From Rhodobacteraceae bacterium Alg231-04 (lineage in GTDB: Bacteria; Pseudomonadota; Alphaproteobacteria; Rhodobacterales; Rhodobacteraceae), in the NCBI GenBank assembly GCA_900143635.1, contig FREY01000011.1:3-64002 (forward strand): 64,000 bases of DNA, written 5' to 3'. The notes under the pieces are model-generated. The model did no database searches. It was not told where the DNA came from and saw nothing but the letters and a program-made list of their open reading frames with translations. How positions within the stretch are numbered: position 1 is the first letter of the stretch; each line of letters starts with the position of its first letter. Shown here one piece after another: positions 2,960 to 48,787 of the stretch. The position numbers and the translations under genes were made by a program.

Positions 2960-3147
2960 TCGCCCATTCTCAGGTCACTGTTGAGAAAGTCGTCTGCCGC
3001 CTCTGGCGCGACCATGTTGGCATCGACGATGACACTGCCATCAGGCTTGATCTCAAATTTTGCCCGCTGCCAACCTGCTTCCCGCGCCTCGCGGATGAAG
3101 GCGGAGGCTGCCTGTCTAGCCTTTGTCTGTACACTTGCTTTGGTCAT
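2956..3147 (-). CDS. Small protein coupled to integrase
   Basis: A 63-residue protein starting MTKASVQTKARQAASAFIRE. It has a basic amphipathic N-terminal helix, then a short segment FEIKPDGSVIVDA and an acidic tail. I chose the internal ATG at 3147 because the longer frame has an unlikely N-terminus. It overlaps the integrase start by four bases. Its position suggests an excisionase-like or integrase accessory role, but there is no recognisable winged-helix or MerR-type motif, so function is unknown. Confidence 0.65.
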   Translation of the reverse strand: MTKASVQTKARQAASAFIREAREAGWQRAKFEIKPDGSVIVDANMVAPEAADDFLNSDLRMGE

Positions 3148-7862: not shown

Positions 7863-8018
7863 ACCCGCTAGGTCATCAAAGGCGTCTCTAGCATTCCGCG
7901 ACGTTGGGCGCTTTTGTGCGCGTTCCAAACGAGCCCACCCTTGGAACACCCTCAGAATCATGTGATTTTCCGACCAAACCTACATTTACCGCAAAGCGCA
8001 CACGCGATCTTTGACACG

Positions 8019-24938: not shown

Positions 24939-27205
24939 GCTCCATCTACCTCCTGTTCGATAAGAGCTTGATCTTGGACATTGTCTACGACTTCCAAAGG
25001 GAGCGGAACGTAGTCATCACCCATCATCATCTTGTAATGGCCGGCATGACCCGACTCTTCGAAAATCCGCTGGAAAACAGCAAGGTGACGATCAACTTGG
25101 TTTGGATCACAAGCCAAGTAGAGATCATCTGGAGCAAAGTGCGAGCCATCGTTGATCCACGACAGCAAAGAATTGCAGACCATTTTGTCTTTGCCTTCGA
25201 AGCTGTCGATAATTGTCTCAGGCGTGATCCCGCCGTAGAACTTGAAGTAGTGTTCGAGAATTCTTCTAGTGACGTTCTGGATCGCGGTATCTGACGGCGG
25301 TTTTTGCCGGACCTCGCGCCAAAGTAGCTCATAGCTCGATTTGATCGGGTTCTCGTTGAAAGGCACAATCTGTGAGCAATCCGATGTCTTACGCACTACC
25401 CAAAACGTTTCATCACTTCTTGCCGTGGCACCGCTGCGCTTTTTATCGAACGTCACCTCCTTGTGGAAATAAATATTGTGCGTGAGTACAAACACTTGCT
25501 TGATTGGGCTTGTACCGGAACGCATCTCGGTAACTATGTGTTTTATCAGATTGCAGACGATGAAAAGAATGTCCGCGTCAAGGCTCGAGACGGGATCGTC
25601 GAACACAACAACTTTGTCGTTGGTGCCACCGCTCGAGTTGAACGAACCCCGGATCAGATACCAAAAATATAGGAAAGTAATGAAGGACTTCTCGCCTTCG
25701 CTCAGCGTCCGTTTCGCGTCGCTACCGTCCGCACGTTTGACTTCATAGAAACCGCTCTCCTCGCCTTCTGCGAGATGAAAATTGGTGAACCCAAATGACT
25801 TCAGAAGCTTATTGATGGCATCAATCGTTGGCTTGATGCTTGTAATCTTACGTTCATTTTCTTCGATCTCCTCTTGCTTGGCCACCAAGTTTTTCATTTC
25901 GGTCTCAATCTGACCGTTTAACGATGTGATCGCCTTGTCGAGATCATTAGCCTCCGTGTTGAACTGATTGTAGGTTGTCTTTGTGTCTTCGAGCAGCCGC
26001 TTCCAAACCTGGGATGTCAGTTCCTTCTTGCGAGCGGCAAGATTGTCAATGGTATCGTTGTTTGCTTTGACTTTCGCGTTGGCCGTGCTGATATGCCCAT
26101 TCACCGCAGCAAAGAGTGGGGCTGTGTCGGTGAGCGTGGCAGGAGCGCTTGGTTCTTTTCGTTTGGCTGAAATGTGCTCTACATTGCTATCCAGAGCGAG
26201 GCGAAGGGCTGTGACATCCTTCTCGAAAGCTTCGCGGTCAAGGTATGACGACTCAACAGTCTCGGCGGCGCTATATCCATCCAACAAGTTATTCGCAGCA
26301 GCCCTGTAGTCCGAAAGCAACTTGTCGATATCACCTAGGTCGGCAATATAAGTCTCGTCGAAATACGTCTCCAGGCTCAGCTTGAAGGCCGCATCAGTTT
26401 CTTGCTGACAAAACGGACACTGATCTTCCAATTGATCAAAAAAATGCCGCCCTTGCTGAACCCAGTCGCTATTGCCGAGCGTTTCAATCAGCCCAGCGAT
26501 ATCCACGTCTTCTTTGCCGATGATCTTTTTCTTTAGGATCGCGGCGCCTTCTAGCGCCGTAACCTTTGAACTGTCCTGATCGGGCAAAGTGCTTGCCGTT
26601 GTTAGCGCTCCCGAGAAGACGATCTCCGCGTCATCGCGGAGTTCTGTCATTTCCCTTAAAGTCGTTGTGTTGCTTGAAGCCTCTATCAGATAGCGGTCTC
26701 GGAATTTTTTCTTGTCGCTGTTGAGGCCAGTGAAGGCATCTTTCAATTCACTGAACTTTCCCTTGGCGTCCCAGACATTCTGCAAGAGGAGCGTATCGAG
26801 CGTTTCGCGTTCTTTCTTTTTTCCGCTTTCTCCATCCTCCCCAATAAGAATTTTTCGAAGGTTCTTTAGCTTAGCATCGATCTTATCAGCTTCGCCCTTT
26901 AGCGTCTTAATCCTTGTAGCGACCTCGATGTTCTCGCCGAAGGTGTAGATACCCTTGATGCTGCTTTCGGCATCGAAGTGTTTTTCCACAAAATCCTTGT
27001 TATAAACGCGGGTTTCTAACGCCGCTCCGCCTGTCCAGGATATCTTGCAATCAGGAAAACTTCCCGTGCCCTCGACCACACGAGAGATTGTTGTCTTTCC
27101 TGATCCGTTAGAACCGAAGATGTAATTGAGCTTCTTTAACTCTTCGAGCTTGGTGCCTGTCGCATCATACGCACCTTCATTCGCCAAAAATATGCTTTCG
27201 ATCAT
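24935..27205 (-). CDS. RloC-like ATPase, putative anticodon nuclease
   Basis: 756 residues, AAA_13 family. Walker A GSNGSGKTT is near 32; coiled coils flank a zinc-hook CPFC at 263-266. Then come the signature TLSEGEKSFITFLYFWY, Walker B VVVFDDPVSSLD (about 535) and H-loop VFVLTHNIYFHKEV. The C-terminal domain has R647-x3-E651 (RRILEHYF) and H689 (WINDGSH), the same order as the Arg-Glu-His triad of the PrrC anticodon nuclease. RloC is the zinc-hook version of PrrC, a phage-exclusion tRNA nuclease, with a similar length. It is first gene of the operon, with about 200 bp upstream for a promoter. ATPase and hook are certain; nuclease activity is inferred. Confidence 0.75.
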   Translation of the reverse strand: MIESIFLANEGAYDATGTKLEELKKLNYIFGSNGSGKTTISRVVEGTGSFPDCKISWTGGAALETRVYNKDFVEKHFDAESSIKGIYTFGENIEVATRIKTLKGEADKIDAKLKNLRKILIGEDGESGKKKERETLDTLLLQNVWDAKGKFSELKDAFTGLNSDKKKFRDRYLIEASSNTTTLREMTELRDDAEIVFSGALTTASTLPDQDSSKVTALEGAAILKKKIIGKEDVDIAGLIETLGNSDWVQQGRHFFDQLEDQCPFCQQETDAAFKLSLETYFDETYIADLGDIDKLLSDYRAAANNLLDGYSAAETVESSYLDREAFEKDVTALRLALDSNVEHISAKRKEPSAPATLTDTAPLFAAVNGHISTANAKVKANNDTIDNLAARKKELTSQVWKRLLEDTKTTYNQFNTEANDLDKAITSLNGQIETEMKNLVAKQEEIEENERKITSIKPTIDAINKLLKSFGFTNFHLAEGEESGFYEVKRADGSDAKRTLSEGEKSFITFLYFWYLIRGSFNSSGGTNDKVVVFDDPVSSLDADILFIVCNLIKHIVTEMRSGTSPIKQVFVLTHNIYFHKEVTFDKKRSGATARSDETFWVVRKTSDCSQIVPFNENPIKSSYELLWREVRQKPPSDTAIQNVTRRILEHYFKFYGGITPETIIDSFEGKDKMVCNSLLSWINDGSHFAPDDLYLACDPNQVDRHLAVFQRIFEESGHAGHYKMMMGDDYVPLPLEVVDNVQDQALIEQEVDGA

Positions 27206-27407: not shown

Positions 27408-29300
27408 CTACCTGTCTGAAGCTTGCTCCAAAAACCGTTCCACCCTAGCTGTTCCCGCTTGGTAGTCGCCTAATTCGGGTTGTTCCGCGAGCTGCTCACC
27501 TCGCCCCCCAGAAGCCAAATCCTCAATCTCATCACGCCGTTTCCCACCACCTGCAAAGGCATCAACGGCTGCCTCTCTTGGCACTTCCAACGCTCCGATC
27601 TTAGCCTCCAGCGCCTTGATTTGCCCTTGCAGGCCGCGCATCTGGTCCCCCGCTGAGGGATAAGGCAGATCACCGATCTGCTTGTCGAAGATCTGCTTAA
27701 AGAACCGATCCTCATAGTATTTGATCCGCTTGGCGCGCACGGGCATTTGCGCGTCGACCACCAGAACGATGTCATCAAGATCCATGCGCCGCGCCTTGTC
27801 CTCGGGCAGCAAAGCGGTTTCTTCGGTCCGTTCGGACATGCTGCGACCGGCGAAGGGGTTGCGACCGACCGAGCGCGAGCGGGTCACAACGCGCTTGGTG
27901 GTTTTGCCGACGGCTTTGCTAAGCTCTTCGATGGTCTTCTCATCCGAGGGCGTCAGATAGAGCTTGATGCCCGCGTTACCCTGCAAGGCGCGGCGGGCGT
28001 TTTCACCATAGATCTCGTCAAGTGCCGGGATTGTCTGTGTGACGATCGCAAGATTGGCTCGGTACGATCGCAGGGTTTCAATGCTGTCCAGAACGATCGG
28101 CATTTTGCCCAGGCGGTTGAACTCATCGAGCATGATCATCACCGGCCAGGGTTCGTCCTTGCCGGGTTCATGATCCTGAAGCGATGCCAGCAAATCCGAG
28201 AAGAACAAGCGGATCAACGGCGCGAGCGGTTTTACCATCAGCGGTTCGACCACGAGATAAACCGAAAACGGCGACTTTCGGATGTCGCGGAAATCGAAGT
28301 CTGACGTTGCGGTCGCACGGTCGATGGCGGGGTTTGACCACTGCTTCAGGCCGGACGTCATCAAGAGCGACAGATAAGAGGTGAGCGTGTCGTTGTTGGT
28401 CGAGGCCATACGCATGAAAATCAGCTTGGCGGCTGGATTGACGACTTCGTCTGCGCGGCGGCGATACTCCTTCTGCTTGTCCCCGCCTGATGCAGTGATG
28501 CGGTAGATCTCGCCCAGGGTCGGCCGCTTTCGCTCAAATGCCAAAAGCCCTGCCGCCACGAATAGATCGATACCGCCATCGAGGAGCCCCTGAACCCGGT
28601 CGTTATCAGCCTGAAGGAACAGCGAAGCCAGGAGTTGCAGCTCCATCTGCTGGCGGTCGACATTCTCAAGTGCCGATATGCGCAGCAAGGGGTTGTATCG
28701 GTGCGAGCGGCCATCCTTCCAGTCAGTGGGCGCGAAGCGAAATACCCTGTCGCCCTGCGCGGCCCTGTGGCGCGCCGTTGCCGCGAAGTTCTCGCCCTTC
28801 ACGTCCAGCACCACCGCACTGCCCTGGTAGGTCAGAAGATTCGGGATGACGAACCCCGTCGTCTTGCCCCGTCCGGTCGGAGCGACGATCAGGGCATGGG
28901 GGAATACCTTGGACATAACGAAGGGTTTGCGACTCTTCGGCTTGCCCATTTTGCCGAGAACAAAGCCATGGCCGGGCTTACCGAAGAAGCCATTGCGCTT
29001 CATCTCGGACATGTGCTGCCAGTGGGTTTCGCCGAACTTGGTCAGCGCGTCATTCATCAAGACAGCGCTGAGCAAAACACCAGCGCAGGTGCATACCCCA
29101 ACGATCAAGTGAACGATCTGCATATCGTCGGGATGGGTTGTTCGAAGTACCCCATAGCTGCGCGCCAGCATCAGGAAATCGATATCCGCCCCGACCCCGA
29201 CCCAGCGGAACGTCAGAAAGGCCGACGCCAGAACATACCCCAGCACCGCGCCAAGAAGGGCAAAGCTCATGACGCCGAGTGCGATCCGCGCCTTACCCAT
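27408..29300 (-). CDS. virD4: VirD4/TraG coupling protein
   Basis: Type IV coupling protein that brings the relaxosome to the channel, 630 residues from the ATG at 29300. Two N-terminal membrane helices (about 5-30 and 55-80), Walker A APTGRGKT near 140, VVLDVKGEN, then Walker B VMIMLDEFNRLGKMP. I prefer this start because its ATG overlaps the relaxase stop (CATGGGTAA); the longer frame would overlap by 71 bases. The C-terminal 60 residues are charged and variable. Confidence 0.93.
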   Translation of the reverse strand: MGKARIALGVMSFALLGAVLGYVLASAFLTFRWVGVGADIDFLMLARSYGVLRTTHPDDMQIVHLIVGVCTCAGVLLSAVLMNDALTKFGETHWQHMSEMKRNGFFGKPGHGFVLGKMGKPKSRKPFVMSKVFPHALIVAPTGRGKTTGFVIPNLLTYQGSAVVLDVKGENFAATARHRAAQGDRVFRFAPTDWKDGRSHRYNPLLRISALENVDRQQMELQLLASLFLQADNDRVQGLLDGGIDLFVAAGLLAFERKRPTLGEIYRITASGGDKQKEYRRRADEVVNPAAKLIFMRMASTNNDTLTSYLSLLMTSGLKQWSNPAIDRATATSDFDFRDIRKSPFSVYLVVEPLMVKPLAPLIRLFFSDLLASLQDHEPGKDEPWPVMIMLDEFNRLGKMPIVLDSIETLRSYRANLAIVTQTIPALDEIYGENARRALQGNAGIKLYLTPSDEKTIEELSKAVGKTTKRVVTRSRSVGRNPFAGRSMSERTEETALLPEDKARRMDLDDIVLVVDAQMPVRAKRIKYYEDRFFKQIFDKQIGDLPYPSAGDQMRGLQGQIKALEAKIGALEVPREAAVDAFAGGGKRRDEIEDLASGGRGEQLAEQPELGDYQAGTARVERFLEQASDR

Positions 29301-31101
29301 GCGTCGCGCCCTTTTCGCCGTCGGCATCGACATGCCGCTCGCGTTGAACATCAATTTCTTCATTGGCGATCTCGTCTAGGACATGCTCCATCGCCACACT
29401 GTTCGTCAGAGCGGCATCGCTCTGCAGATAGGCCTTAGCCGCATAGAGCCGGTCCAGGCGGTCTTCGATATGTTCCTCCAGCGCGGTCTCATCGCCAATT
29501 GCCAAGTCCGGGGTATTTTCTTCACCGGCCAGATCCTCCAGTTCGGCCCTCAAGGTCTCGCGCTCCAGATCGTTTCGGAATGGATCTGCGGTCGGATCAT
29601 CTCTCAAACGGCTCAGGATGTCAGAGGTGGTCGGCGGCAACCCGTCGACTATGGCTTCCTCCCGGTCGGCCTCCACCGCTCCACTGTACTTGAGAACTTC
29701 AGCATCGGCCAACATACGGCCCAGATCACTGTGCACCTGGTCAAGACGGTCGATCACTTTCTCAAGCTCATCGGCGCTCGCCAAGTCAAAGCCTTCCTTG
29801 TCGGCAATCGCCTTCAGATCCTGTCCAAGCCATTGCTGTTCCAGCGCGGCATTGCCCGCGCCAATCTCGACGCGGCGCGTCACCTCTTGCGCGTCAATGC
29901 CAGTGCCTTTCAAAGCCTGCTGAAGACGTTCGGTAAGTGCCGTATCCCGCAATGCGCTTTGTGCATCGGCCTGAATGTTCGCGGCCGAATAGATCCCGCT
30001 CTTGGATGCATCCTCAAGCAAGGTATGGGACTGCGTTCCCATTGGGCTGAGATGCGACAAAGAGCGATAGATGTCGTTCAGCTCATGCTCCAGTGCCGCA
30101 CGCCGCTCCACCGGGGCGTCAGCGACAATGCGTTCGGCTTGGTTGATCTTGTCGTGAAAGGCATCCACGACCTCATCAAATGAATGTTGTTCTTCGGCCA
30201 TACCATATACCTTTCCATCTGCTTCAATCGGTTTGCCCTGCGCCAAGAGCCGCGCGGCCTTATCCAAGGCTGCTGCAATGTCATGCTGGCTCTCGCGCGA
30301 GGCTTCGGCAGCAAGGCCGCGGTAAAGCCGCGCATTCTGCGCCACCTCGGCCATTGCGCGGTCAAGTTCTGACCCCACGCGCTCGCGCTCAATCAGCTTC
30401 TGGCCCGAGGCTTCCGCGCGACGCTGGTCAACATCGCTTGGCCTCTTCGTCGTGATCCCACGTTCGAGCTTTCGGGTCGCCTCAAGCCGCAGCCCATAGC
30501 GGTCCGACACCTCCACCATCGCCTCCCGAAAACTGTCGTAGTTGAAGTGGTGCCCTTCTTTCAGAAAGAAGAACTCCCCGTCCTTGCTGCGCCGGTTCAG
30601 GACGATATGGGCGTGTGGGTGGTCCCGGTCCTCATGCACGGCGGCGATGTAGTCAAAGTGGCTGCCTTCGCCCTGAAAGAAACGCTCGCAAATCTCGCGT
30701 GTGATGTCGGCGACATCCTCGCGGCGCGTGCCAATCGGGAAGGCCATCAGTAGGTGCGTTGTATGCCCCAGCTTGGGATGGAACCCCTCATTCCATTGCG
30801 CTGAAAACCGACGCGTGACCTGCTCGATCTCTTTGGCTGACAGAACGCTTTGGCCGTCATAGGTGCCCCGGCTGTCGATGATAATGCTCGACTTGGTGGT
30901 CAGGTATTCCAGTTGGTTGCGCAGCTGCGTTTTGTTGTGTGTGCCGCCATCGCGAATAGCTTTGAAGATCGCGGGGGAATGGCCCATGGCGGCGCGCGCC
31001 ATCTGCTTTGCACGGGCGCGCGGGACGCTGCCGCGAATGCGGCTCCAGTCGCGATCGAAGAAGGCCTCCTGCGCGGCAGAAACGGCGCTATTCCGGGCCA
31101 T
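29293..31101 (-). CDS. VirD2-like relaxase
   Basis: 602 residues. It nicks oriT and pilots the strand into the recipient. The relaxase domain covers about 60-260 and contains HTTHLLMAFPIGT, the metal-binding HEDRDHPHAHIVLNRR near 160 and NYDSFREAMVEVSDRYGL as in VirD2. The catalytic Tyr is probably within LEYLTTKSS near 70. The C-terminal 340 residues are helical and acidic, probably the transfer signal and coupling-protein contact. The ATG at 31101 is inside the mobC-like gene (14-base overlap). Confidence 0.92.
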   Translation of the reverse strand: MARNSAVSAAQEAFFDRDWSRIRGSVPRARAKQMARAAMGHSPAIFKAIRDGGTHNKTQLRNQLEYLTTKSSIIIDSRGTYDGQSVLSAKEIEQVTRRFSAQWNEGFHPKLGHTTHLLMAFPIGTRREDVADITREICERFFQGEGSHFDYIAAVHEDRDHPHAHIVLNRRSKDGEFFFLKEGHHFNYDSFREAMVEVSDRYGLRLEATRKLERGITTKRPSDVDQRRAEASGQKLIERERVGSELDRAMAEVAQNARLYRGLAAEASRESQHDIAAALDKAARLLAQGKPIEADGKVYGMAEEQHSFDEVVDAFHDKINQAERIVADAPVERRAALEHELNDIYRSLSHLSPMGTQSHTLLEDASKSGIYSAANIQADAQSALRDTALTERLQQALKGTGIDAQEVTRRVEIGAGNAALEQQWLGQDLKAIADKEGFDLASADELEKVIDRLDQVHSDLGRMLADAEVLKYSGAVEADREEAIVDGLPPTTSDILSRLRDDPTADPFRNDLERETLRAELEDLAGEENTPDLAIGDETALEEHIEDRLDRLYAAKAYLQSDAALTNSVAMEHVLDEIANEEIDVQRERHVDADGEKGATHG

Positions 31102-31678
31102 CGGCAAAGCCTCCCAGTACGCGGGCAACCTCGCCGGACAATGCGCTGCGGCGACGCTGCGCCATGTCCTGAACCTGGTCTGCAATGTCGAAGATCAGCC
31201 CGGCCAAAGCGCGGACTTGGGCATGGGCAGAATTGCCATAGGGCGGCGTCTTGCCCTGACGTTTTGCTTCGTTCAGGCGCTGCGCAATCTGGTTGATATT
31301 GTTGCCGGTCCGATTGAGCGAGGCCGATAGCCCCTGCATCTGATTGGCCAGTTCATCGTCGGGAACGAAGAGATCGTTTGAGGCATGGATCAGCCGACGC
31401 AGCCCTTCGGCGCGGTTGGCAATATCATGCCGCGTCAGCACGGCATCAAAGTTCGCAAGCTCCTTTGGCGTAAGCCGGACATTCACCAGCTCAGAGCGCA
31501 CGCGCGCATCAAGCTTGCGGCTTTGATCGCCCTTCAACGTGTAGAAGATGCTGCGCGGCGTGACGCCGAATTCACGGGCCAGATCCTCGATCGGCACCCC
31601 TTCGGCACGCTTGCGCACGATGGCAAAACGCTGGTTCTGCGTCAGTCGTTTGTGCCGTGGTGCGCGCGGTCGGCCCAT
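31088..31678 (-). CDS. MobC-like relaxosome accessory protein
   Basis: 196 residues. An N-terminal helix-turn-helix (FAIVRKRAEGVPIEDLAREF, then GVTPRSIFYTLKG) probably binds oriT. The central and C-terminal parts show the MobC pattern (VRLTPKELANFDAVL, LSASLNRTGNNINQIAQRLN). It is first gene of the mobilisation operon, just right of which lies the palindrome cluster taken as oriT. It helps the relaxase open the nic region by analogy. Confidence 0.85.
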   Translation of the reverse strand: MGRPRAPRHKRLTQNQRFAIVRKRAEGVPIEDLAREFGVTPRSIFYTLKGDQSRKLDARVRSELVNVRLTPKELANFDAVLTRHDIANRAEGLRRLIHASNDLFVPDDELANQMQGLSASLNRTGNNINQIAQRLNEAKRQGKTPPYGNSAHAQVRALAGLIFDIADQVQDMAQRRRSALSGEVARVLGGFADGPE

Positions 31679-31711
31679 GTGAAGTAATCATCCCTATTTC
31701 TTGCCAGCATC

Positions 31712-31783
31712 ATACAGGCAGCCCTGTTATGGCATTTCGCCATAATTGATTCAATATTATAATATTGCATCAACTGCCTGTAT
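31712..31783. other. Probable oriT: nested inverted repeats
   Basis: A 72-bp stretch flanked by the inverted repeat ATACAGGCAG (31712-31721) and CTGCCTGTAT (31774-31783). Inside are TTATGGCatttcGCCATAA (31727-31745) and the perfect palindrome CAATATTATAATATTG (31752-31767). It lies directly upstream of the mobC-like and relaxase genes, the usual place of an origin of transfer. The AT-rich palindrome also carries TATAAT on both strands and may double as promoter/operator. The nic site cannot be read from sequence alone. Confidence 0.6.
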
Positions 31784-31793
31784 TCCGTTTGGA

Positions 31794-31847
31794 GCAGCCA
31801 TCGGCTGCGACCGCCGGGCAAAGCCCGGCCCCATGCGCAAGGCATGG
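31794..31847. repeat. Three consecutive hairpins next to oriT
   Basis: GCAGCCatcGGCTGC (31794-31808), GCCGGGCaaaGCCCGGC (31813-31829) and CCATGCgcaagGCATGG (31831-31847) follow one another without gaps of more than four bases. They could terminate the leftward small-gene operon or be part of the oriT fold. No U-tract follows on the minus strand. Confidence 0.5.
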
Positions 31848-31852
31848 CACCA

Positions 31853-32134
31853 CTAATCGTGGTTCCACGCCTCAGCATCGCCAAGCAATTGCAAAGCAAT
31901 TGCGCGGGCCACGCCTTCGGCGCTGGAATAGATTTGATGGTCGGTCAGCTCGTGCAGATCAAAAGGCTGTTGCGGGTCGTCCGGGGTCTCGACGCGAACA
32001 TAGATCGCCCAGCCATCGATCAGTGCTGGATCATCACAATACTCCTGCCCGCCATCGGGCAGATTACAGAACCCATGAAGATGCACACTGGCGCGGCCCT
32101 CTCGGGCCGCCTGCTTGATATCAGAATACTTCAT
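31853..32134 (-). CDS. Small leading-region protein
   Basis: 93 residues starting MKYSDIKQAAREGRASVHLH. It is soluble and acidic, with a mixed alpha/beta look and the sequence GWAIYVRVETPDDPQQPF. It is last of four short leftward genes that overlap at their ends. No motif is known to me. Genes of this size next to oriT often act early in the recipient. Confidence 0.65.
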   Translation of the reverse strand: MKYSDIKQAAREGRASVHLHGFCNLPDGGQEYCDDPALIDGWAIYVRVETPDDPQQPFDLHELTDHQIYSSAEGVARAIALQLLGDAEAWNHD

Positions 32135-32345
32135 GGCAAACCTCGGCGCTTTCACCGATGAAAAATTCGTCAGGGTTGCCGTTCAGGCGGGTGCCATCCC
32201 GACTGGTCAAACCAATAGCTGACCCATTCCGTGTGAAGGTGATGAGGTATTGCCCGAGGTCATCACGCGTCACCACATAGCCGCTGTTGACCCAATGAAC
32301 GCGGTTGCCCGCGTCCACTGCTGCTTTGATGTCTTCCAAGGTCAT
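32121..32345 (-). CDS. Small leading-region protein
   Basis: 74 residues starting MTLEDIKAAVDAGNRVHWVN. A short helix is followed by beta strands (GYVVTRDDLGQYLITFTRNG). It resembles its downstream neighbour in plan (helix with IK-AA-G, then strands), suggesting an old duplication. It overlaps both neighbours by 4-14 bases. Function unknown. Confidence 0.65.
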   Translation of the reverse strand: MTLEDIKAAVDAGNRVHWVNSGYVVTRDDLGQYLITFTRNGSAIGLTSRDGTRLNGNPDEFFIGESAEVCHEVF

Positions 32346-32545
32346 CGCAACGCCTCCTCAAGGATTGCGAGCGCCCCGAGACAATCGTCGATATAGGGCT
32401 GCTCTTCGCCGTCCAGATCGTTCAATTCCAGTCGGTTCAACACCGCGTAAAGCGTGGCGCGCGCCTCACGGGCAGCGCTTCGCAAGCTGACGGTATCTTC
32501 CAGACGCGCCGTCGCAAAATCATCGCTGTGATAGTCAGGGATCAT
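32342..32545 (-). CDS. Small helical leading-region protein
   Basis: 67 residues starting MIPDYHSDDFATARLEDTVS. It is almost entirely helical and acidic. The ATG at 32545 overlaps the stop of the gene before it (ATGA), which favours it over the ATG 27 bases upstream. No motif recognised. Confidence 0.6.
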   Translation of the reverse strand: MIPDYHSDDFATARLEDTVSLRSAAREARATLYAVLNRLELNDLDGEEQPYIDDCLGALAILEEALR

Positions 32546-32850
32546 CGGATTTCTCCTGCCTTGTGTTTCCAACGCGGGGCGATGTCTTTGAACGGCACGG
32601 TGAAGGGCGGCAGCGCGTCAAAGCCATTCGAGCTCTTGACCACCTTCACCTTGGCGCAATCCTCCTCGACGCTGAGGATCTCGACACAGAACACGCCCCC
32701 CAAACCGGACGGGACAACGATCTCCCTCAGCTCGTGCCGATGCTTTCCGCAATAGACGCAGGTGCTATAAAGCCCGTCGATGATGTGACCGCCGGTCGTG
32801 CGATCACAGTCGCAGGTCCAGAATTTCGGGGGCTGATATTTGTGAGCCAT
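32542..32850 (-). CDS. Small zinc-ribbon-like leading-region protein
   Basis: 102 residues starting MAHKYQPPKFWTCDCDRTTG. It has a likely zinc knuckle (CDCD and CVYCGKH near 13-35), then a beta-rich half. The ATG at 32850 has the ribosome-binding site GAGGAGG with the same spacing and flanking bases as ardC, because both genes share a duplicated leader. First gene of the four-gene operon. Confidence 0.65.
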   Translation of the reverse strand: MAHKYQPPKFWTCDCDRTTGGHIIDGLYSTCVYCGKHRHELREIVVPSGLGGVFCVEILSVEEDCAKVKVVKSSNGFDALPPFTVPFKDIAPRWKHKAGEIR

Positions 32851-33150
32851 TTGTGGCCTCCTCTTGGGTGCTGCGGTTGGGGCTTGGCTCCCCTCCCGCC
32901 GATGGGCTGCACACCGGCCCATCTGATCTGACCGAATACGCATGTATTCGGCGGAACAGAGTGGGTGGGGGCACAGCCCGACCCACGCCCCTGGAGCGGC
33001 CAGTCAAAGGGTCAGAGCCAGCAACTGGTGCGGCCCGCAGCGCACGCCCTCGCGCGAGGACACGGGTTGCAGGCTTTGACGACGCGCCCGCGCGGCGCTT
33101 GCCCATTGACGGGGCGCGACAGGGATGTTGGGCGGACCAATCAAATTGAA
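32851..33150 (-). promoter_or_regulatory. Structured leader, copy A
   Basis: Non-coding 300 bp upstream of the four-gene operon, repeated upstream of ardC at 34356-34680. Shared parts, in the same order, are: TTGTGGCCTCCTC next to the start codon; a 43-base exact block (32923-32965) containing CCGAATACGCATGTATTCGG at 32932-32951; and CAGGGATGTTGGGCGGACCA at 33120-33139. The same order and similar spacing in both copies points to a working promoter/leader module, not chance. Confidence 0.75.
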
Positions 33151-33216
33151 AGAAGCCTGAAGGAGGTGAGCGGGCTGAAAGCCAGCCGATCCTCCGCACA
33201 GTCCGTTTCTCAGAGC

Positions 33217-33240
33217 GGCCCGTGCGCAGCAGCACGGGCC
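33217..33240. other. 9-bp stem hairpin
   Basis: GGCCCGTGC-gcagca-GCACGGGCC followed on the plus strand by acaattttt. It sits between leader A and the ardC-operon terminator. It could act as a plus-strand terminator or be part of the leader structure; no plus-strand gene ends here. Confidence 0.4.
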
Positions 33241-33267
33241 ACAATTTTTCATCTGGTTCAAAATGCC

Positions 33268-33295
33268 TGCGCCCCGCCACATGAGGCGGGGCGCA
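33268..33295 (-). terminator. Terminator of the ardC operon
   Basis: An 11-bp perfect stem TGCGCCCCGCC/GGCGGGGCGCA with a 6-base loop begins 5 bp after the stop of the zinc-ribbon gene. On the minus strand it is followed by GGCATTTTG. Position and strength fit an intrinsic terminator with a short U-tract. Confidence 0.7.
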
Positions 33296-33300
33296 GACGT

Positions 33301-33480
33301 TTAAAGCTCAACACCGGCTTTCAAGTTGCCGTCCGGATCCAGCCAGGAACGGGCCTCGGCGCAATCCAAGCAAATACAGGAGCAACTGCCTTTCACGATG
33401 ACCGGCGCGAGAAAGATCACTGGGTTTGACGCGCCGCATTTGCGGCACGTCATCGGGGGCAGGATTGCTGGCCCGCTCAT
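33301..33480 (-). CDS. Small zinc-ribbon protein coupled to ardC
   Basis: 59 residues starting MSGPAILPPMTCRKCGASNP. Cysteines in CRKC and in CSCICLDC give a likely zinc ribbon. The ATG overlaps the ardC stop (33477-33480, ATGA), and a strong terminator follows, so it is the second and last gene of the ardC operon. Function unknown; by position it may help ArdC or act on DNA in the recipient. Confidence 0.7.
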   Translation of the reverse strand: MSGPAILPPMTCRKCGASNPVIFLAPVIVKGSCSCICLDCAEARSWLDPDGNLKAGVEL

Positions 33481-34355
33481 GCTGCGGCCGCTTTCGACTG
33501 ACCTGCGGCTGCTAGGACAAAATCGGCTGCCTTCTGGGCCTCGGACGCCGCACGAAAAATCGCCCGTTTGTCTTCTTTGAGCGCTTTCAACCAGCCTTCA
33601 ACGTAGGCGGCGCTTTGGTCGAATTCCGGCGCGACGCCAATCTGAGCACCAAGAAAACAAGCGCCAATTTCCGCCACCAGCTCTTCAAAGGCATAGGCCT
33701 CACGGTTTGCAAACTTCTTGATCCGCTCCAGCCGCTTTTCGCTGCCGGTCCAATGGATCACCTCATGGGCCAACGTCCCATAATAGCCTGCCGCATCGTG
33801 AAACGTGGCAATCGGCGGCATGTGGATGTGATCTTTGGCGGGGCTGTAATAGGCACGCGGATCATCACTGGTGAGAATCTCGGCCCCTGTCCGGCCGAAA
33901 AACGCCTCAAGCTCTGGATCTTCCGCCGTGCCCAGGTCGCGCGGGGCCTCGGGCCGGATGTAATACTCCTCCGGCAATCCCTCGATCTGATCCGCATTGA
34001 AAACGCGATAGGCGCGCACATAGGGCAGCTCTTCCTCGATGCCCAACTCGTTCTCTCGGGTGAAGGTCCCGTATTTGACCACGGTCGACGACGTTTCGCC
34101 TTTACGGACTTGGCCGCCCAGCTCCTGCGCCTGTTTGTAGGTCATCCAGCGGCTGGAAACATGGCCATGCTTGGCCGCCATGATCCAGAGCATCAGGATG
34201 TTAATCCCGCGATACTCCTCGCCGTTGTGCCGTGTCGGCAGGGCAATGCCGGACGCGCTTCCAGTCCACGGCTTGCGCCACGGCGGCGTGCCCGCCTCGA
34301 TCTCTGCAATAATGGTGTGGGTGACATGGGCATAAACATCAAACTTCGGTGCCAT
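33477..34355 (-). CDS. ardC: ArdC-like antirestriction protein
   Basis: 292 residues. The N-terminal ssDNA-binding ArdC domain contains FDVYAHVTHTIIAEIEAGTP, PWRKPW, RHNGEEYRGINILMLW and a SSRWMTYKQAQELGGQVRKG block. The C-terminal zincin-like metallopeptidase domain has HEVIHWTG near 197, with a further Glu in FEELVAEIGA. ArdC proteins protect incoming conjugative DNA from host restriction. It is read toward oriT in the probable leading region, behind leader copy B with GAGGAGG as ribosome-binding site. Confidence 0.9.
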   Translation of the reverse strand: MAPKFDVYAHVTHTIIAEIEAGTPPWRKPWTGSASGIALPTRHNGEEYRGINILMLWIMAAKHGHVSSRWMTYKQAQELGGQVRKGETSSTVVKYGTFTRENELGIEEELPYVRAYRVFNADQIEGLPEEYYIRPEAPRDLGTAEDPELEAFFGRTGAEILTSDDPRAYYSPAKDHIHMPPIATFHDAAGYYGTLAHEVIHWTGSEKRLERIKKFANREAYAFEELVAEIGACFLGAQIGVAPEFDQSAAYVEGWLKALKEDKRAIFRAASEAQKAADFVLAAAGQSKAAAA

Positions 34356-34680
34356 TTGTGGCCTCCTCGATCAAAGTGACGCGGGTGAGGCTTCGTGCCC
34401 CCTTCCGCCGATGGGCTGCGCCTCGGCCACCTGATCTGACCGAATACGCATGTATTCGGCGGAACAGAGTGGGAGAGGGCAAAGCCCGACCCACGGCCCT
34501 GAACGGGGCTGTCAATCGGCCACATTTGCGGAGAAAATGTCTGCGCCAAAATCAGACGCCAATTTGCGCCGCGAGGAATGGCTCGCCCGCGAGACAGGGG
34601 AAATTGATGGCTGATTTTGTGGATGGACTAAGGTTGACCGCCACGGTCAGGGATGTTGGGCGGACCAAACAAAATTGATG
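34356..34680 (-). promoter_or_regulatory. Structured leader, copy B
   Basis: Upstream region of ardC, the second copy of the module at 32851-33150. The exact 43-base block is at 34431-34473, its hairpin palindrome CCGAATACGCATGTATTCGG at 34440-34459 and CAGGGATGTTGGGCGGACCA at 34648-34667. The sequence between the blocks has diverged, so conservation is focused on these elements. 34681-34925 holds no gene; it has a short palindrome (34759-34778) and the promoter region of the BREX operon. Confidence 0.75.
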
Positions 34681-34925
34681 ATGTCTGGATCGGGGTGAGC
34701 GGGCCAACGGCCCGTTGAGCCTCGGTGCAGTCTATTGGGAGATGTTGCCCGCGCGCTTAAGCGCGGGTTCTTCTGAAACCATGCGATACTTCCCAGGCCG
34801 CGCGCGATACAAGGCCAAAGCAATCCCTCAACCCGCTGACAGAATTACAAGATATCGCAGACGGTCCGCTGAGTATATGGTTCTTAAATGTAGACCCATC
34901 CCCTAGGTTGAACTAGACTTAAGCT

Positions 34926-35798
34926 ATGACAAGCGAATCGAATAGTCTTTCACGATGGCAGCAGGATCGCCGTGCATTCATTGAGCACAGGGTCTTTTGG
35001 CGTGGACGTGTCGGCCTTGCGGATCTGATGGATGTTATGGGCCTCAGTCGGGCTCAAGCTTCGAAAGACCTCAATAGCTACATCAATGATCATCCCGAAC
35101 ACATCATCTACGATAAAACGGCCAAGACCTACGTTCTGGGCCCAAAGTTCGAAGAACACTACACTGCGCTTGATCCGTCAGAGTATCTTGATGATCTCCT
35201 GTCGATCTCACGGGGCGGTTCAGTCCCCGCTGCAGACTGGATTGTCTACCAACCGGACATTCTGGCAACCACTGTGCCTGGGCGCGGACTAAGCGCACTA
35301 ACACTTCGCAACGTCTTATTGGCCTGTGAACAGCGCAAAGAGCTGCAGATAAGCTATCAGTCCATGTCCTCCCCCGATCCAGAAAATCGCGTTATCATTC
35401 CTCATGCCCTCGCACATGACGGATTTCGTTGGCATGCGAGAGCGCTTTGCTCAAAAGACCAAGTTTTCAAAGACTTTGTTCTCGGACGCATACTGAAGAG
35501 CGCATTGGGGGAACAATCAGATGCCGACGCCGGTACCGATGAAGACTGGCACCAAACAATAACGCTCAAAATCGCACCGCACCCTGGCCTGTCTGAAAAC
35601 CAACGCAGGATTGTAGAGCTAGACTATGCAATGAATGACGGGGCGGCAGAACTTTCAGTGCGAAAGTGCCTATTGTTCTACAATCTAAAGCGGCTAGGCC
35701 TTGATGTTGATCCAAGTATCCGCGCCCCGCAGGATCAGCACATAGTTTTGATCAATGACGGAGAAGTCCGCGCTGCTCTCGAGAGGGGACGGCGATGA
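34926..35798 (+). CDS. brxR: BrxR/CapW-like WYL-domain regulator of BREX
   Basis: 290 residues. The N-terminal winged helix is about 10-75 (WRGRVGLADLMDVMGLSRAQ). The central WYL domain covers about 125-215, with LQISYQSMS, HALAHDGFRWHARAL and FVLGRILK. A C-terminal WCX-like extension follows. This is the plan of the BrxR/CapW repressors that precede BREX and other defence loci and sense phage infection or DNA ends. The stop overlaps brxA (ATGA), making it the first gene of the BREX operon, probably autoregulated. There is no obvious Shine-Dalgarno sequence. Confidence 0.9.
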   Translation: MTSESNSLSRWQQDRRAFIEHRVFWRGRVGLADLMDVMGLSRAQASKDLNSYINDHPEHIIYDKTAKTYVLGPKFEEHYTALDPSEYLDDLLSISRGGSVPAADWIVYQPDILATTVPGRGLSALTLRNVLLACEQRKELQISYQSMSSPDPENRVIIPHALAHDGFRWHARALCSKDQVFKDFVLGRILKSALGEQSDADAGTDEDWHQTITLKIAPHPGLSENQRRIVELDYAMNDGAAELSVRKCLLFYNLKRLGLDVDPSIRAPQDQHIVLINDGEVRAALERGRR

Positions 35799-36409
35799 GT
35801 GCTTTCGCGAGACAAGACTACAAGATGTCATTTAGCACCGGCGGGCTCTTCCTGAACGAAAGCCTGGAAGTCGCGCGCTTGCATAAAAACGGTGAAGCTT
35901 GGGAAGACACAATTCTCAGAGCCATGGAGGAAGGCACAACCAGCCTACCGAAATCAGCATCGAACCGTCGATCGTTGCGCGAAATTTCTAATCGCCTGCT
36001 TACTCTTACGGATGAGGAACGCGCTTACCTTGTGGAAGAGGCGGACCGCTCCGAACAGCAGGCGATGTTGTGGATCGCCACATGCCGCGCATATCGGTTC
36101 ATTCGTGAATTTGCGGTGGAAGTGGTGAGAGAGCGATACCTATCTTACCAACTCGATCTACCGCTCGAAAGCTTTGACATTCTTTTTGAGGCAAAAGCTG
36201 AATGGGATGAAGGACTGGCCGGATTAAGTCGGTCGACCCGCCTGAAACTTCGTCAAATCATGTTTCGCATGATGCGTGAAGCCGGGATCATTTCAGAAGA
36301 TGATCGCATTCAAACCGCGATTATTTCCACACGTTTCAAACACATGATTGAAGACCACAACCCCGGCGAGCTGGCCATTTTCCCCAGCGTTCCGGTCGAG
36401 GGAGCTTAA
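35795..36409 (+). CDS. brxA: BrxA (DUF1819)
   Basis: 204 residues. A helical DNA-binding-like protein of BREX. It shows the family-typical start YKMSFSTGGLFLNESLEVAR, the middle RAYRFIREFAVEVVRERYLS and the FRMMREAGIIS wing region. It overlaps the regulator by 4 bases and ends one base before brxB. Needed for BREX in some systems; the exact role is unclear. Confidence 0.92.
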   Translation: MSAFARQDYKMSFSTGGLFLNESLEVARLHKNGEAWEDTILRAMEEGTTSLPKSASNRRSLREISNRLLTLTDEERAYLVEEADRSEQQAMLWIATCRAYRFIREFAVEVVRERYLSYQLDLPLESFDILFEAKAEWDEGLAGLSRSTRLKLRQIMFRMMREAGIISEDDRIQTAIISTRFKHMIEDHNPGELAIFPSVPVEGA

Positions 36410-36410
36410 A

Positions 36411-37013
36411 TTGAAACGAGAACTAAACCGGAAAGAGCGGGCCGAGCATCTATACCGCGTGATCACCAGCGAACGTTTCCTGACCAAACAAGGCCTAGGG
36501 AATGAAGTGCCATTTTTTATCTACCCCTTTCCTGCCGAGGAAGGGCTCACCATGGTTGAGGATCGCGAAGATCTTGTGGCCCGAATTCAGCACTCTGGCA
36601 CTCAAGTGTTGGACCTGAACCTTTACGATCTCGCGCTCGACATACTTTCAGAGCGCGGGATCTTAGAGCAGGTTCTCGAAATTGAGGCCGACAGTAGCAA
36701 GGGTGAGATCAAGGAGCTTCTCCAAGGCGTCTTGGACCCACAGGCCCACCTGATCCCGCGTATTGGCCAGGCGATCCAAGCAATCCCGCATGACGTCATT
36801 TTCTTGTCAGGCGTCGGTGAGGTATACCCTTACATCCGCTCTCACAACGTGCTGAACAACCTACAAAGCACTGCGAAAGAAGCACCAACCGTTCTCTTCT
36901 TCCCTGGAAGCTACACCCATGCTTTGGCGACTGGCGCGTCATTGGATCTCTTTGGTCAGCTTCATGACGACAAGTATTACCGCGCCTTCAACATTCTGAA
37001 TTACGAGGTCTAA
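36411..37013 (+). CDS. brxB: BrxB (DUF1788)
   Basis: 200 residues from a TTG start at 36411, chosen because it follows the brxA stop by one base, with GGGAG just upstream. The DUF1788 pattern is present: VPFFIYPFPAEE, LDLNLYDLALDIL, VIFLSGVGEVYPYIRSHNVL and the C-terminal TVLFFPGSYT. No catalytic residues are known. It is a core BREX component of type I systems, 4 bp upstream of brxC. Confidence 0.92.
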   Translation: MKRELNRKERAEHLYRVITSERFLTKQGLGNEVPFFIYPFPAEEGLTMVEDREDLVARIQHSGTQVLDLNLYDLALDILSERGILEQVLEIEADSSKGEIKELLQGVLDPQAHLIPRIGQAIQAIPHDVIFLSGVGEVYPYIRSHNVLNNLQSTAKEAPTVLFFPGSYTHALATGASLDLFGQLHDDKYYRAFNILNYEV

Positions 37014-37017
37014 GCCC

Positions 37018-40000
37018 ATGGCCCAGCTGCTAAAAGACATTTTTGAGAAACCCGTTGATCGCGCCATTGACGGCGTCATCAAGGCCGACGACGAGGCAAG
37101 CCTCCGCATCGAGCTCGACGAGTACGTCATCACAGGAGAGATCGGCCAACGGCTGGAGCAGTTCCTCGAAGCCTACAACAACTATGACACTTCAAATGGC
37201 GTCTGGATCTCTGGCTTCTTTGGCTCTGGTAAGTCGCACTTGCTGAAGATGCTGGCTCTACTGCTCGAAAATCGTGAGGTCGACGGCAAAACTGCTCACG
37301 AGATCTTCGCTGAAAAGCTCAAAGGCGAGCCAATGCTGGCAGGCGCACTCAACAAGGCCGTTTCCATCCCGTCGAAATCGATCTTGTTCAATATCGACCA
37401 GAAGGCAGATGTGATCTCGAAAACGGATGTAGATGCGCTTCTATCTGTCTTCCAAAAGGTCTTTGACGAAGCCTGCGGGTTCTATGGCAAACAGCCTCAT
37501 ATCGCGCAATTCGAACGCGACTTGCAGGGGCGTGGGCAATTCGAGGCATTCAAAGAAGCTTTTCGAAGCGCTGCCGGTAAAAACTGGGAACGCGGTCGAG
37601 AACAGGCGCTGCTCGAAGCCAAGAATATTGCGACAGCGTTTGCAGAAGCAACCGGTGGTGATCCTTCAGATGCAAAAGACATCCTGAGCCAATACCGGAA
37701 GGACACACGTGTCTCGATTGAGGACTTCGCTGGCACAGTCAAAGCTTGGATCGATGACCAGCCCAAGGGTTTCCGGCTCAACTTCTTCGTTGACGAAGTC
37801 GGCCAATATATTGCGGACAATGTAAAGCTCATGACCAACCTGCAAACCATCGCAGAGAGCCTTAACACCAAATGCAAAGGGCAGGCTTGGATCATAGTAA
37901 CTGCGCAGCAAGACATGGCGTCGGTTATCGGCGACATGACGCAACAGCAAGAGAATGACTTCTCCAAAATTCAGGCCCGCTTCAGCAACCGTATGCCGCT
38001 GAACTCGGCCGATGTCGCTGAAGTGATCCAGCGCCGCCTCCTCGCCAAGACGTCGGAAGGGCAAGTGACGCTTGGCAACCTTCATGACCGCGAAGAAAAC
38101 AACCTCAAGACCCTGTTCGATTTTGCTGACGGCTCGATGAAGCTTAAAAACTACCGGGATCGCGAACACTTCATCTCAAGCTATCCTTTCCCCCCCTATC
38201 AGTATGACCTCTTTCAAATGGCGATCACGTCTTTGTCGGAGCACAACGCATTTGAAGGCAAACACAGCTCGGTCGGCGAGCGGTCGATGTTGGGCGTTTT
38301 CCAAGAGGTCTCGAAGAAGCTGAAAGACAAAGAAGTCGGAGGGTTGGCCACTTTCGATCTTATGTTCGAAGGGATCCGCACCGCGCTGAAATCTTCGGTT
38401 CAGCAGAGTATTCAGATTGCCGAAAAAAACCTGGACGATCCGTTCGCCGTTCGGGTCTTGAAATCCTTGTTTCTCGTCAAATACGTCAAAGGCTTCAAAC
38501 CGTCGGTTCGAAACATCGGAATTCTGCTCCTGTCAGAGTTTGAGGCGGACCAGACGAGCCAACGCCGCAAGATCGAGGAAGCATTGAGCCGTCTGGAAAG
38601 GGAAACCTATATCCAGCGGAACGGTGAGGTCTATGAGTTCCTCACCAATGAGGAAAAGGATGTCGAAGCGGAAATCAAAGCCCTCGACATAGACCCTTCT
38701 GAGCTCTCGAAAGAACTCGAAACCCTCGCATTCGATACCATTCTGCGTCATCGCAAGATCAAGCATCTCGCAACCAACAGCGAATATTCCTTTACCCGGA
38801 AGCTTGATGATCACGCGGTTGGTCGCGAGTACGAACTGGCAATCAATCTCGTTTCGCCCCTCAGCGACGAGGTTGAAAGCCCCGATGGCATTCGAATGAA
38901 AACTATGTCTCGGGAAGAGCTCGCGGTTGCCATGAAACCAGATGCCAACTTCGTCCGCGACCTGATCCTGTTTAAGCAAACGGACAAGTTCATCCGTCAG
39001 TCCCGCAGCGGTTCTCCGCAGCCGGGCCGCGACCGTATCGTCGCAGAAAAAGGAGAACAAAACGGCCGCCGCGCAAAGGACCTTGAAATGCGGCTTCGCA
39101 AGTTGATGGGAAGCGCCCGACTTTTCGTCAGGGGTGACGAATTGGAGATCGGTGGAGAGGATGCTCAAGAGCGCATTAGCAAGGCGTTCCAGTCCCTGGT
39201 CGACAAAGTCTACACCAATCTCCCGATGCTGCGCGGCGTCAGCTATACCGAGGCCGATATCAACAAAGCGGTACAGTCGGAAAGCGGGCTCTTCGGTTCT
39301 GACGGCACAGGTATCAACGAAGCCGAACAAGACGTCCTCAGCTTCATCAATGCGCAGGCACGCAACGGGGTGAAGGTCTCCGTCAAATATCTGGCTGATC
39401 GGTTCACATCCAAACCCTACGGCTGGCCAGTAACCGCAGTCCTTTGCCTTGCAGGCAGCTTGGTCGCCAAAGGAAAAATCGAAGCGCGCGTCGACAGTGC
39501 CATCAAGGAAGGGCTGGATCTCGCCAAGGCGTTGAACAACAGTCACGCGCTAACGAACATATTGCTGACCCCTCAGACGGAATTCTCCGCTGCAGAAATT
39601 CGGCGGGCGAAAGAACTATATCAGGAACTCTTTGCGCATCCCTCATCAGGAACAGATGCGCGCAGTTTGGGCGCAGAGTGGGCTACAAGCATTGATGCAC
39701 TTGAAGCCGAGGTAGACCGGTATGTTCGCCAGTCGCACAGCTACCCTTTCCTAACCGCGCTCGAGCCGTTCCATGAACTGCTGCGGGGCATGAAGGGCAA
39801 ACCGGCGAACTGGTATATTTCCGACGCACCCAAGCGCGAGGATGACCTTCTGAACGCGAAAGAGGATATCCTGGATAAGGTGAAATCCTTCATGGGGGGT
39901 GCACAAAAAGGTATCTACGACGACGCCCGCGATATGCTCGACAGCCAATCTGCCAACATCGACTATGTCGATCCTGATGCTGGGGCGAAGCTGCGCGCCG

Positions 40001-40536
40001 CATTGGAGGATCCGGGCTGCTTTAAGGGGTCATCGATCCAGAACCTCAAATCCGACCTGTTTGACCTGAAAAACAAGGTTGAACTCAAGGTTCTTGAGGA
40101 ACGCAAATCCGTCATCGCAGAGGTGGAAGACGTCTCTGCTAAGATCGCGCAGATGCCGGACTTCCAGGCGCTCGACACGGACAAACAAGCCCGCATCACC
40201 GCGCGCATCGAGAGCCACAAGGCAGGCCTCGACACGGTCACGCTGATCCCTGTGCTGCGCGACCGGGCCAATGGCGCGCGCACCAACCTGCTGTCGGACG
40301 TCGTCACCGAACTCGACCGCCTCGCGCGACCGACACCTGCGCCCGAGCCACAGCCCGGCATGTCGGACCGGCCTGCGCCCGCGCCGCAGCCTCCCACTAC
40401 AGTCCTCGCCTCGCAGCTGAAGGTCACAGCCCCCAAGACGCTGCTGACCGATGAAGCGGACGTCGACCAATACCTTGAAGAAATGAAAAAGACCCTGCTG
40501 GCCGAAATTCGCGCGGGTAAGAAAGTTATTGTGTAA
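37018..40536 (+). CDS. brxC: BrxC ATPase
   Basis: 1172 residues, DUF499-type P-loop ATPase. It starts MAQLLKDIFEKPVDRAIDGV; Walker A GFFGSGKSHLLKML is near 65-78; KLNFFVDEVGQYI-like Walker B near 255-265 reads LNFFVDEVGQYIAD. The C-terminal third includes a Pro-rich linker (PTPAPEPQPGMSDRPAPAPQ) and then the tail. The stop overlaps the pglX start by one base (TAATG). Essential in studied BREX systems. Confidence 0.95.
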   Translation: MAQLLKDIFEKPVDRAIDGVIKADDEASLRIELDEYVITGEIGQRLEQFLEAYNNYDTSNGVWISGFFGSGKSHLLKMLALLLENREVDGKTAHEIFAEKLKGEPMLAGALNKAVSIPSKSILFNIDQKADVISKTDVDALLSVFQKVFDEACGFYGKQPHIAQFERDLQGRGQFEAFKEAFRSAAGKNWERGREQALLEAKNIATAFAEATGGDPSDAKDILSQYRKDTRVSIEDFAGTVKAWIDDQPKGFRLNFFVDEVGQYIADNVKLMTNLQTIAESLNTKCKGQAWIIVTAQQDMASVIGDMTQQQENDFSKIQARFSNRMPLNSADVAEVIQRRLLAKTSEGQVTLGNLHDREENNLKTLFDFADGSMKLKNYRDREHFISSYPFPPYQYDLFQMAITSLSEHNAFEGKHSSVGERSMLGVFQEVSKKLKDKEVGGLATFDLMFEGIRTALKSSVQQSIQIAEKNLDDPFAVRVLKSLFLVKYVKGFKPSVRNIGILLLSEFEADQTSQRRKIEEALSRLERETYIQRNGEVYEFLTNEEKDVEAEIKALDIDPSELSKELETLAFDTILRHRKIKHLATNSEYSFTRKLDDHAVGREYELAINLVSPLSDEVESPDGIRMKTMSREELAVAMKPDANFVRDLILFKQTDKFIRQSRSGSPQPGRDRIVAEKGEQNGRRAKDLEMRLRKLMGSARLFVRGDELEIGGEDAQERISKAFQSLVDKVYTNLPMLRGVSYTEADINKAVQSESGLFGSDGTGINEAEQDVLSFINAQARNGVKVSVKYLADRFTSKPYGWPVTAVLCLAGSLVAKGKIEARVDSAIKEGLDLAKALNNSHALTNILLTPQTEFSAAEIRRAKELYQELFAHPSSGTDARSLGAEWATSIDALEAEVDRYVRQSHSYPFLTALEPFHELLRGMKGKPANWYISDAPKREDDLLNAKEDILDKVKSFMGGAQKGIYDDARDMLDSQSANIDYVDPDAGAKLRAALEDPGCFKGSSIQNLKSDLFDLKNKVELKVLEERKSVIAEVEDVSAKIAQMPDFQALDTDKQARITARIESHKAGLDTVTLIPVLRDRANGARTNLLSDVVTELDRLARPTPAPEPQPGMSDRPAPAPQPPTTVLASQLKVTAPKTLLTDEADVDQYLEEMKKTLLAEIRAGKKVIV

Positions 40537-46513: not shown

Positions 46514-46522
46514 GGACCTATC

Positions 46523-48598: not shown

Positions 48599-48637
48599 CG
48601 GTGAAACTGAGTAGATATTTCAGAAAAGAGCAAAGCC

Positions 48638-48775
48638 ATGTTCCGCGTTGATTTGAACCAAAACCGCTTGTCCCGCCTGTCCCAGAAGCGCTTCGCCGAC
48701 TTGAACCTGTGCGAGCGCGGCGATTTGCAGGAACGGCTTGCGAACGAACCAAAATTGCAGATGCGCAGAAATTAG
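48638..48775 (+). pseudogene. 45-codon remnant of a nuclease-type N-terminus
   Basis: MFRVDLNQNRLSRLSQKRFA then DLNLCERGDLQERLANEP. This resembles the N-terminus of DUF91/DUF4268-type nuclease-like proteins, where the pattern 'F-x-x-L-x-L-x-E-R-x-D-L-Q' precedes a much larger domain. Here the frame stops after 45 codons. It lies in the 190 bp between brxL and the DUF262 gene, so it is probably the stub of a BREX-linked accessory gene replaced by its neighbour. A genuine micro-protein is possible. Confidence 0.5.
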
Positions 48776-48787
48776 ACGGACGAACGA

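Follow-up and report, generated by a model that had tools for sequence, protein, structure and literature searches.

Two matching non-coding leaders in the DNA of Rhodobacteraceae bacterium Alg231-04 belong to a real and widespread family of modules that covary, are strand-specific and are largely locked in one orientation. Both lie in the window (the whole stretch of DNA that was analysed, 64,000 nucleotides long), ahead of genes that read toward a relaxase. Experiments have established single-strand promoters in enterobacterial plasmids, and we consider it probable that the modules are promoters of this kind, acting like Frpo on behalf of entry genes, with the transferred strand predicted from gene order.

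Two modules in the predicted leading region of an ICE

The element is an ICE that adjoins tRNA-Cys and carries an integrase and a T4SS of the VirB/Trb type. The genes named below, with ardC at one end and the coupling protein at the other, all have a leftward direction. The features of this region are the following:

34356..34790, minus strand: module 2, directly upstream of ardC, homologous to module 1 and to modules elsewhere
33477..34355, minus strand: ardC, with an ArdcN domain and a zincin-like metallopeptidase domain (Pfam PF08401, 1.9e-37; PF18818, 4.8e-48)
33301..33480, minus strand: 59-aa cysteine-rich ORF overlapping the end of ardC, without Pfam match, likely in one operon with ardC
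33261..33302, minus strand: strong inverted repeat past the ardC operon, detected by inverted-repeat search and absent from the terminator-scan list, likely a terminator that parts the ardC operon from module 1
32851..33240, minus strand: module 1, which abuts the 102-aa gene on its upstream side and is homologous to module 2 and to the modules of other elements
32542..32850, minus strand: 102-aa protein with two Cys pairs, without Pfam match, kept behind module 1 in related ICEs
31853..32155, minus strand: 100-aa ORF between the modules and oriT, without Pfam match
31679..31852, no strand assigned: probable oriT, conserved ahead of mobC-like genes in relatives
31088..31678, minus strand: MobC-like relaxosome accessory gene (Pfam: HTH only), which precedes the relaxase and has homologs in relatives
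29293..31185, minus strand: relaxase ORF, MobA/VirD2-like (PF03432, 3.6e-14), exact start uncertain
27408..29363, minus strand: type IV coupling protein, VirD4/TraG-like (PF02534, 6.3e-84)

The first-pass annotation had described duplicated leaders sharing, in like order, a 43-base block, a hairpin, a motif and the start-codon context, and this description was confirmed by repeat and shuffle tests. The longest exact block common to both modules is indeed 43 bases long (32923-32965 and 34431-34473). Five stretches recur in the same order with a spacing of 1505-1529 nt, and their identities are 86% (96 nt), 83% (40 nt), 72% (39 nt), 87% (30 nt) and 100% (18 nt), the last being the start-codon context of both modules. 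The palindrome CCGAATACGCATGTATTCGG, found at 32932-32951 in module 1 and at 34440-34459 in module 2, is expected 0 times in shuffles even if 3 mismatches are allowed. The box GGGATGTTGGGCGGACCA, at 33122-33139 and 34650-34667 respectively, has a shuffle mean of 0.07, and two copies were found in none of the shuffles. It also holds that both modules precede genes of the minus strand, one of them ardC, that read toward the mobC-like gene and the relaxase. The proposed size of ~300 bp needs correction: the two non-coding modules span about 390-435 nt, from start codons at 32850 and 34355 to upstream ends at ~33240 and ~34790.

The probable oriT region contains a 10-base inverted repeat (31712-31721/31774-31783), a palindrome (31752-31767) and a hairpin (31727-31745). 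An alignment of 28 oriT-region sequences did not locate nic, as the inverted repeat is symmetrical and the MOBP nic consensus is matched about equally well by either flank. We infer the direction of transfer and the nic site of this ICE from gene order. In several relatives the oriT alignment (window 31774-31852 and its counterparts) falls apart immediately beyond GCTGCTCCAAACGG on its leading side, with the mobC side constant, as if leading regions had been swapped at or near oriT.

Genes related to defence were also detected in the vicinity. A BREX cluster (BrxB, BrxC, a PglX-type methylase, PglZ and BrxL) lies at 34926-50917, directly past the leading-region modules, with a WYL regulator ahead and a GmrSD-like gene behind. 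The interval between the coupling protein and the T4SS (window 20359-27205) harbors an AAA_27 (SbcC-like) ATPase, a calcineurin-like phosphoesterase and an AAA_13 protein that matches PADLOC PDC-S06 (4e-270), and its genes are possibly a further defence cassette.

Fold, strand preference and promoter boxes

When folding is computed across modules, the strand predicted to be transferred forms a pair of long, imperfect hairpins, named P and Q. The hairpin and the motif of the first-pass annotation are both present; they are, however, parts of these two structures and not separate units. The coordinates are:

34413..34487, plus strand: hairpin Q of module 2, whose apex is the palindrome at 34440-34459
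34490..34515, plus strand (predicted transferred strand): 5' arm of hairpin P, module 2, which pairs with 34634-34663 and shows covariation
34634..34663, plus strand: 3' arm of hairpin P, module 2, with TTGAC at its start, beside the inner loop; it contains GGGATGTTGGGCGG
32904..32979, plus strand: hairpin Q of module 1, apex at 32932-32951
32982..33007, plus strand: 5' arm of hairpin P, module 1
33106..33135, plus strand: 3' arm of hairpin P, module 1

The arms of hairpin P, one of which includes GGGATGTTGGGCGGACC, are separated by ~100-120 nt on the predicted entering strand and pair in an unvarying register; both were found in 99 of 100 modules. The register, which was set by motifs and not by folding, runs through TTGAC, nine covarying positions, CAGG, two further positions, and TGTTGGGCGG against CCGTGGGTCGG. 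TTGAC/GTCAA is near-invariant in 44 non-redundant modules of subfamily I, and the neighbouring positions change together. In an alignment of 28 sequences, hairpin P has 22 pairs and 84.7% of its cells are paired, compared with 28-46% when the arms are slid; double changes occur in 13 of the pairs (0/500 shuffles). Hairpin Q is 97.6% paired. The RNAalifold consensus has 53 pairs, 17 of them with a double change, and the folding z of the two window modules is -4.45 and -5.92.

Folding of the plus strand had been proposed earlier as a check, and the outcome was clear: with DNA parameters, the predicted transferred strand beats its complement in 45/45 modules, with a mean difference of -13.1 kcal/mol. 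Part of this advantage is compositional, as dinucleotide shuffles of the module sequences give a mean of -4.9 (14/540 reach the observed value). In a control made of 120 upstream regions of other ORFs in those loci, the mean was -0.55 and 58/120 favoured the antisense strand. Twenty weaker hits of the covariance model R1, all outside its training set, agreed without exception (20/20, mean -13.9), and F-type Frpo sequences favoured the transferred strand in 4/4 cases in a like test. Within P, G-T cells number 49 on the predicted transferred strand but 3 on its complement; omission of the invariant position 20 lowers the first count to 21 and leaves the second at 3. Hence, the bias in strand and wobble favors a fold of the plus strand and argues against sense RNA as the selected fold. 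The fold test behaves alike for plus-strand DNA and plus-strand RNA, and cannot separate the two.

These data bear on the idea that ordinary double-stranded DNA gives rise to a leader RNA acting in cis, be it riboswitch-like, a thermosensor or a 5' UTR that binds a protein. The position of the module just ahead of the ribosome site suits this interpretation, and short hairpins are possible in the sense RNA, with an alifold structure of -29.6. The other strand folds better, however, both with RNA values (-42.1 vs -29.6) and with DNA values (-14.7 vs -8.9), and the wobble pairs are on the transferred strand. Furthermore, a promoter scan detected no ordinary sigma-70 promoter at 32800-35000, and a search of Rfam gave no module match at the gathering threshold (tRNA only) and nothing credible at permissive thresholds. 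A leader RNA is therefore unlikely.

Inspection by eye of the module alignment, together with a scan of the window, revealed no TATAAT-like -10 hexamer 16-18 nt from TTGAC. In the main subfamily, I, TTGAC resembles a -35 box and is suitably positioned for one. Among 20 distant modules, also classified by eye, 16 belong to subfamily II, two resemble subfamily I and two (L134 and L138) make up subfamily III. Subfamily II is mostly found ahead of another ArdC, of 294 aa. Its box reads TTGTCA in one arm and TTTTCT in the other, and that of subfamily III reads CTGTCT. The distant subfamilies thus keep the P stem and the GGNNTG...GGCGG arm but not the -35-like box, and the replacement of the box in subfamilies II and III indicates that TTGAC cannot be read as a -35 element in general.

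Distribution, downstream genes and orientation

The core pattern was detected in 99 stretches (one genome per species); among the matches listed (80 named of 99), most are from Rhodobacterales, with additional cases in Jiella, Aurantimonas, Fulvimarina and Altericroceibacterium. In PLSDB, 25 records had matches when searched with DNA. The only stretch with the core in the IMG/VR viral collection carries ardC and a mobC-like gene, and looks like an ICE filed as viral. An nhmmer profile run over the collected DNA retrieved 100 full-length modules, which the chosen redundancy threshold reduced to 45; hits that include the 3' part numbered 124. Model R1 matched 54/292 genomes of the order, 2/385 of the class and 1/200 of the phylum, each count including the source genome, and a DNA-only search matched 11/295 genomes of the family.

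Several modules may coexist in one plasmid. L006 harbors near-identical modules at 646-889, 4057-4321 and 7866-8130 with different genes downstream, and the same is true of L010 (5883-6122 and 9771-10010), a pattern that suggests recent cassette duplication or gene conversion. In L004, a module appears to be split in two: its parts (2797-3036 and 4101-4243) are separated by ~1 kb, in which the other strand encodes a HAD hydrolase.

A start codon is found at the end of the module (-3 to +12 nt) in 113/124 hits, as counted by hand from the listed offsets. The first genes behind the modules include ardC and genes for ParB-like, DUF932, DUF3560 and DUF3768 proteins and DNA methylases. Across the 124 hits, the downstream genes that recur most often by sequence are ardC and those of the 102-aa family. 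Pfam analysis of 20 downstream proteins, hand-chosen for variety, identified DUF3768 (4), ParB-like (3), DUF3560 (2), DUF932 (1), an N6/N4 DNA methylase (1), DUF1419 (1), MobC (1) and DUF4942 with a weak methyltransferase match (1); the other six matched no family. The leading regions of F and ColIb-P9 contain genes for ParB-like, antirestriction, methylase, SSB and PsiB proteins, with DUF932 in F and DUF4942 in ColIb-P9, so that the likeness to Frpo-type leading regions noticed in the first place extends to shared gene classes. For plasmid R388, it is reported that ardC must be expressed in the recipient, whereas the donor does not require its expression (PMC7213743).

The module could also be an ssi site and nothing else: the folded transferred strand would prime synthesis of the complementary strand via primase or RNA polymerase, with no coding transcript intended. 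A strand-specific fold is equally expected of such a site, the absence of a -10 box fits it, and Frpo is reported as both promoter and priming site (PMC7690428, PMC7736820). However, a pure priming site does not need the start codon at which 113/124 modules end, nor does priming alone call for repetition ahead of several genes per element (four or more on W03). We thus find this explanation quite improbable.

Orientation was examined in 39 records, with relaxases detected by PF03432 and modules by R1. Out of 77 module places, 69 were used and the eight weakest were dropped. A relaxase was present on the same contig for 47 of the 69 and on none for the other 22. In 46 of the 47 (29/30 contigs), the module faces a relaxase on the same strand, 1.0-33.9 kb downstream. 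Hence, the geometry of a leading region whose genes read toward the predicted oriT, initially noted in this window, recurs across many elements. The one exception lies on contig G318:C10 (71,024 bases, from the L064 record); if this contig were closed into a circle, the module would have the relaxase 4.8 kb downstream of it, just like W01 and W02. Of the eight dropped places, three share their contig with a relaxase. Two of these agree, and the third (W04), which is the palindromic hairpin detected as a shadow on the reverse strand, does not, which brings the total to 48/50.

A second set was made of weaker relatives (62 places in 42 genomes). A relaxase was found on the contig in 38 of them, within 60 kb in 30, and 22/30 agreed; the 60-kb limit was chosen after the distances had been seen, and 22/38 agree without it. 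Agreement depended on score: 15/16 at 64 bits or more, and 7/14 below. In two of the misses, the relaxase shares the strand of the module but lies upstream of it. The other six are low-scoring modules inverted at 3.3-3.6 kb from the relaxase (G905, G769, G840, G897, G828 and G752), and they do not fit the entry-strand model. Their equal distances to the relaxase suggest that they represent one lineage of elements. In the case that was inspected (L139 7600-7950, G769:C5), the divergent inverted module reads away from the relaxase and adjoins a virC1-like gene.

The near-identical copies found within L006 and L010 would be in keeping with a double-stranded regulatory or recombination site (an operator, a cruciform or a cassette for homologous exchange), but strong strand asymmetry and biased orientation are unexpected for a double-stranded palindrome, and we regard such a site as very unlikely. 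A plus-strand non-coding RNA, antisense to the leader and acting on the mRNA or on RNA polymerase, would go undetected in a fold test blind to the difference between RNA and DNA, and module 1 is followed by a terminator-like repeat on the plus strand (33217-33240), but the T-run behind this repeat is not kept across modules (by eye) and, as the genes are unrelated and just ~40 nt separate their start codons from the conserved part, a shared promoter would have scant room, so that the idea has very little probability.

Comparison with Frpo and proposed mechanism

M13/G4-type single-strand origins are ssDNA hairpins read by RNA polymerase or primase, and are not known to be coupled to a coding leader. 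Further parallels are Frpo1 and Frpo2 of F (ssiD) and the ssi sites of ColIb-P9. Like these, the modules occupy the leading region, fold on the transferred strand, read toward oriT, occur in several copies ahead of operons, have a similar length and share downstream gene classes. Unlike them, they are GC-rich, have neither an A/T-rich apex nor a visible -10 box, form two hairpins instead of one long stem, and reside in Alphaproteobacteria. Frpo is described as a 328-bp leading-region stem-loop (PMC7690428) that contains a -35 and a -10 box; early expression in F is reported to require it in vivo and, judged by similarity, it is widespread (PMC11541004, PMC9849209, PMC7690428, PMC7736820, PMC12826799).

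Direct homology to the Frpo of F was sought with nhmmer and not detected (best E 3.6 elsewhere in the region, and E 12 in the Frpo2 area). One short stretch in common, GACAG-N5-TCAGG-CCGTGG, is suggestive: on either strand of 20 kb of F it has a single occurrence, inside Frpo2. When the plus strand of this F region is scored with a profile of the module arm, Frpo2 comes third and Frpo1 fifth. In ColIb-P9 the profile does not pick the ssi sites, and other positions score higher. Because the likeness was noticed post hoc and the ColIb-P9 sites are not ranked, we do not use it as proof. Anatomy and context are shared and sequence is not; we therefore view the module as working like Frpo without filing it as a member.

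Samuel et al. 2024 (PMC11541004) put forward Frpo' and low-certainty Frpo candidates as single-strand promoters in anti-defence islands. The idea is the same as ours and the means of detection differs: their candidates are described as coming from BLAST to five known Frpo/ssi sequences plus TTGACA/TATAAT/UP consensus in four islands. The word "Alphaproteobacteria" does not appear in the main text of that article. A search of mainly open-access journal articles turned up no description of elements of this type in Alphaproteobacteria.

Under the interpretation that we favor, that of single-strand promoters, the sequence of events might be as follows. In conjugation, the plus strand would enter the recipient from oriT (~31.7 kb), and each module, while single-stranded, would fold into the long imperfect hairpins P and Q. 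Hairpin P would then offer a double-stranded-like TTGAC beside its inner loop and, ~19-26 nt farther along the stem, a mismatched segment. There, the RNA polymerase of the host (or, with lower probability, a different priming enzyme) would initiate and copy the entering strand toward oriT. In this manner, ardC and the small ORF, as well as the 102-aa gene and those behind it, could be expressed before second-strand synthesis. Once the DNA became double-stranded, the hairpins would be lost and expression would cease. The computations establish the modules, their distribution, gene context and orientation, as well as the covariation and the strand-specific fold; we infer the direction of transfer in this ICE, transcription from a single strand and the polymerising enzyme.

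A more tentative proposal, which we hold to be somewhat less probable than not, is that alphaproteobacterial elements carry an independently evolved class of single-strand promoters: GC-rich, made of two hairpins without a -10 box, read by structure instead of consensus boxes, and borne by ICEs and plasmids as a portable cassette ahead of each entry gene. If the modules are single-strand promoters, R1 provides a searchable model for finding entry genes, and DUF3560, DUF3768, DUF932 and the 102-aa Cys protein would become candidate anti-defence or establishment factors. Early expression from the entering ssDNA would then be a general strategy, reached in Alphaproteobacteria by means of a different structure.
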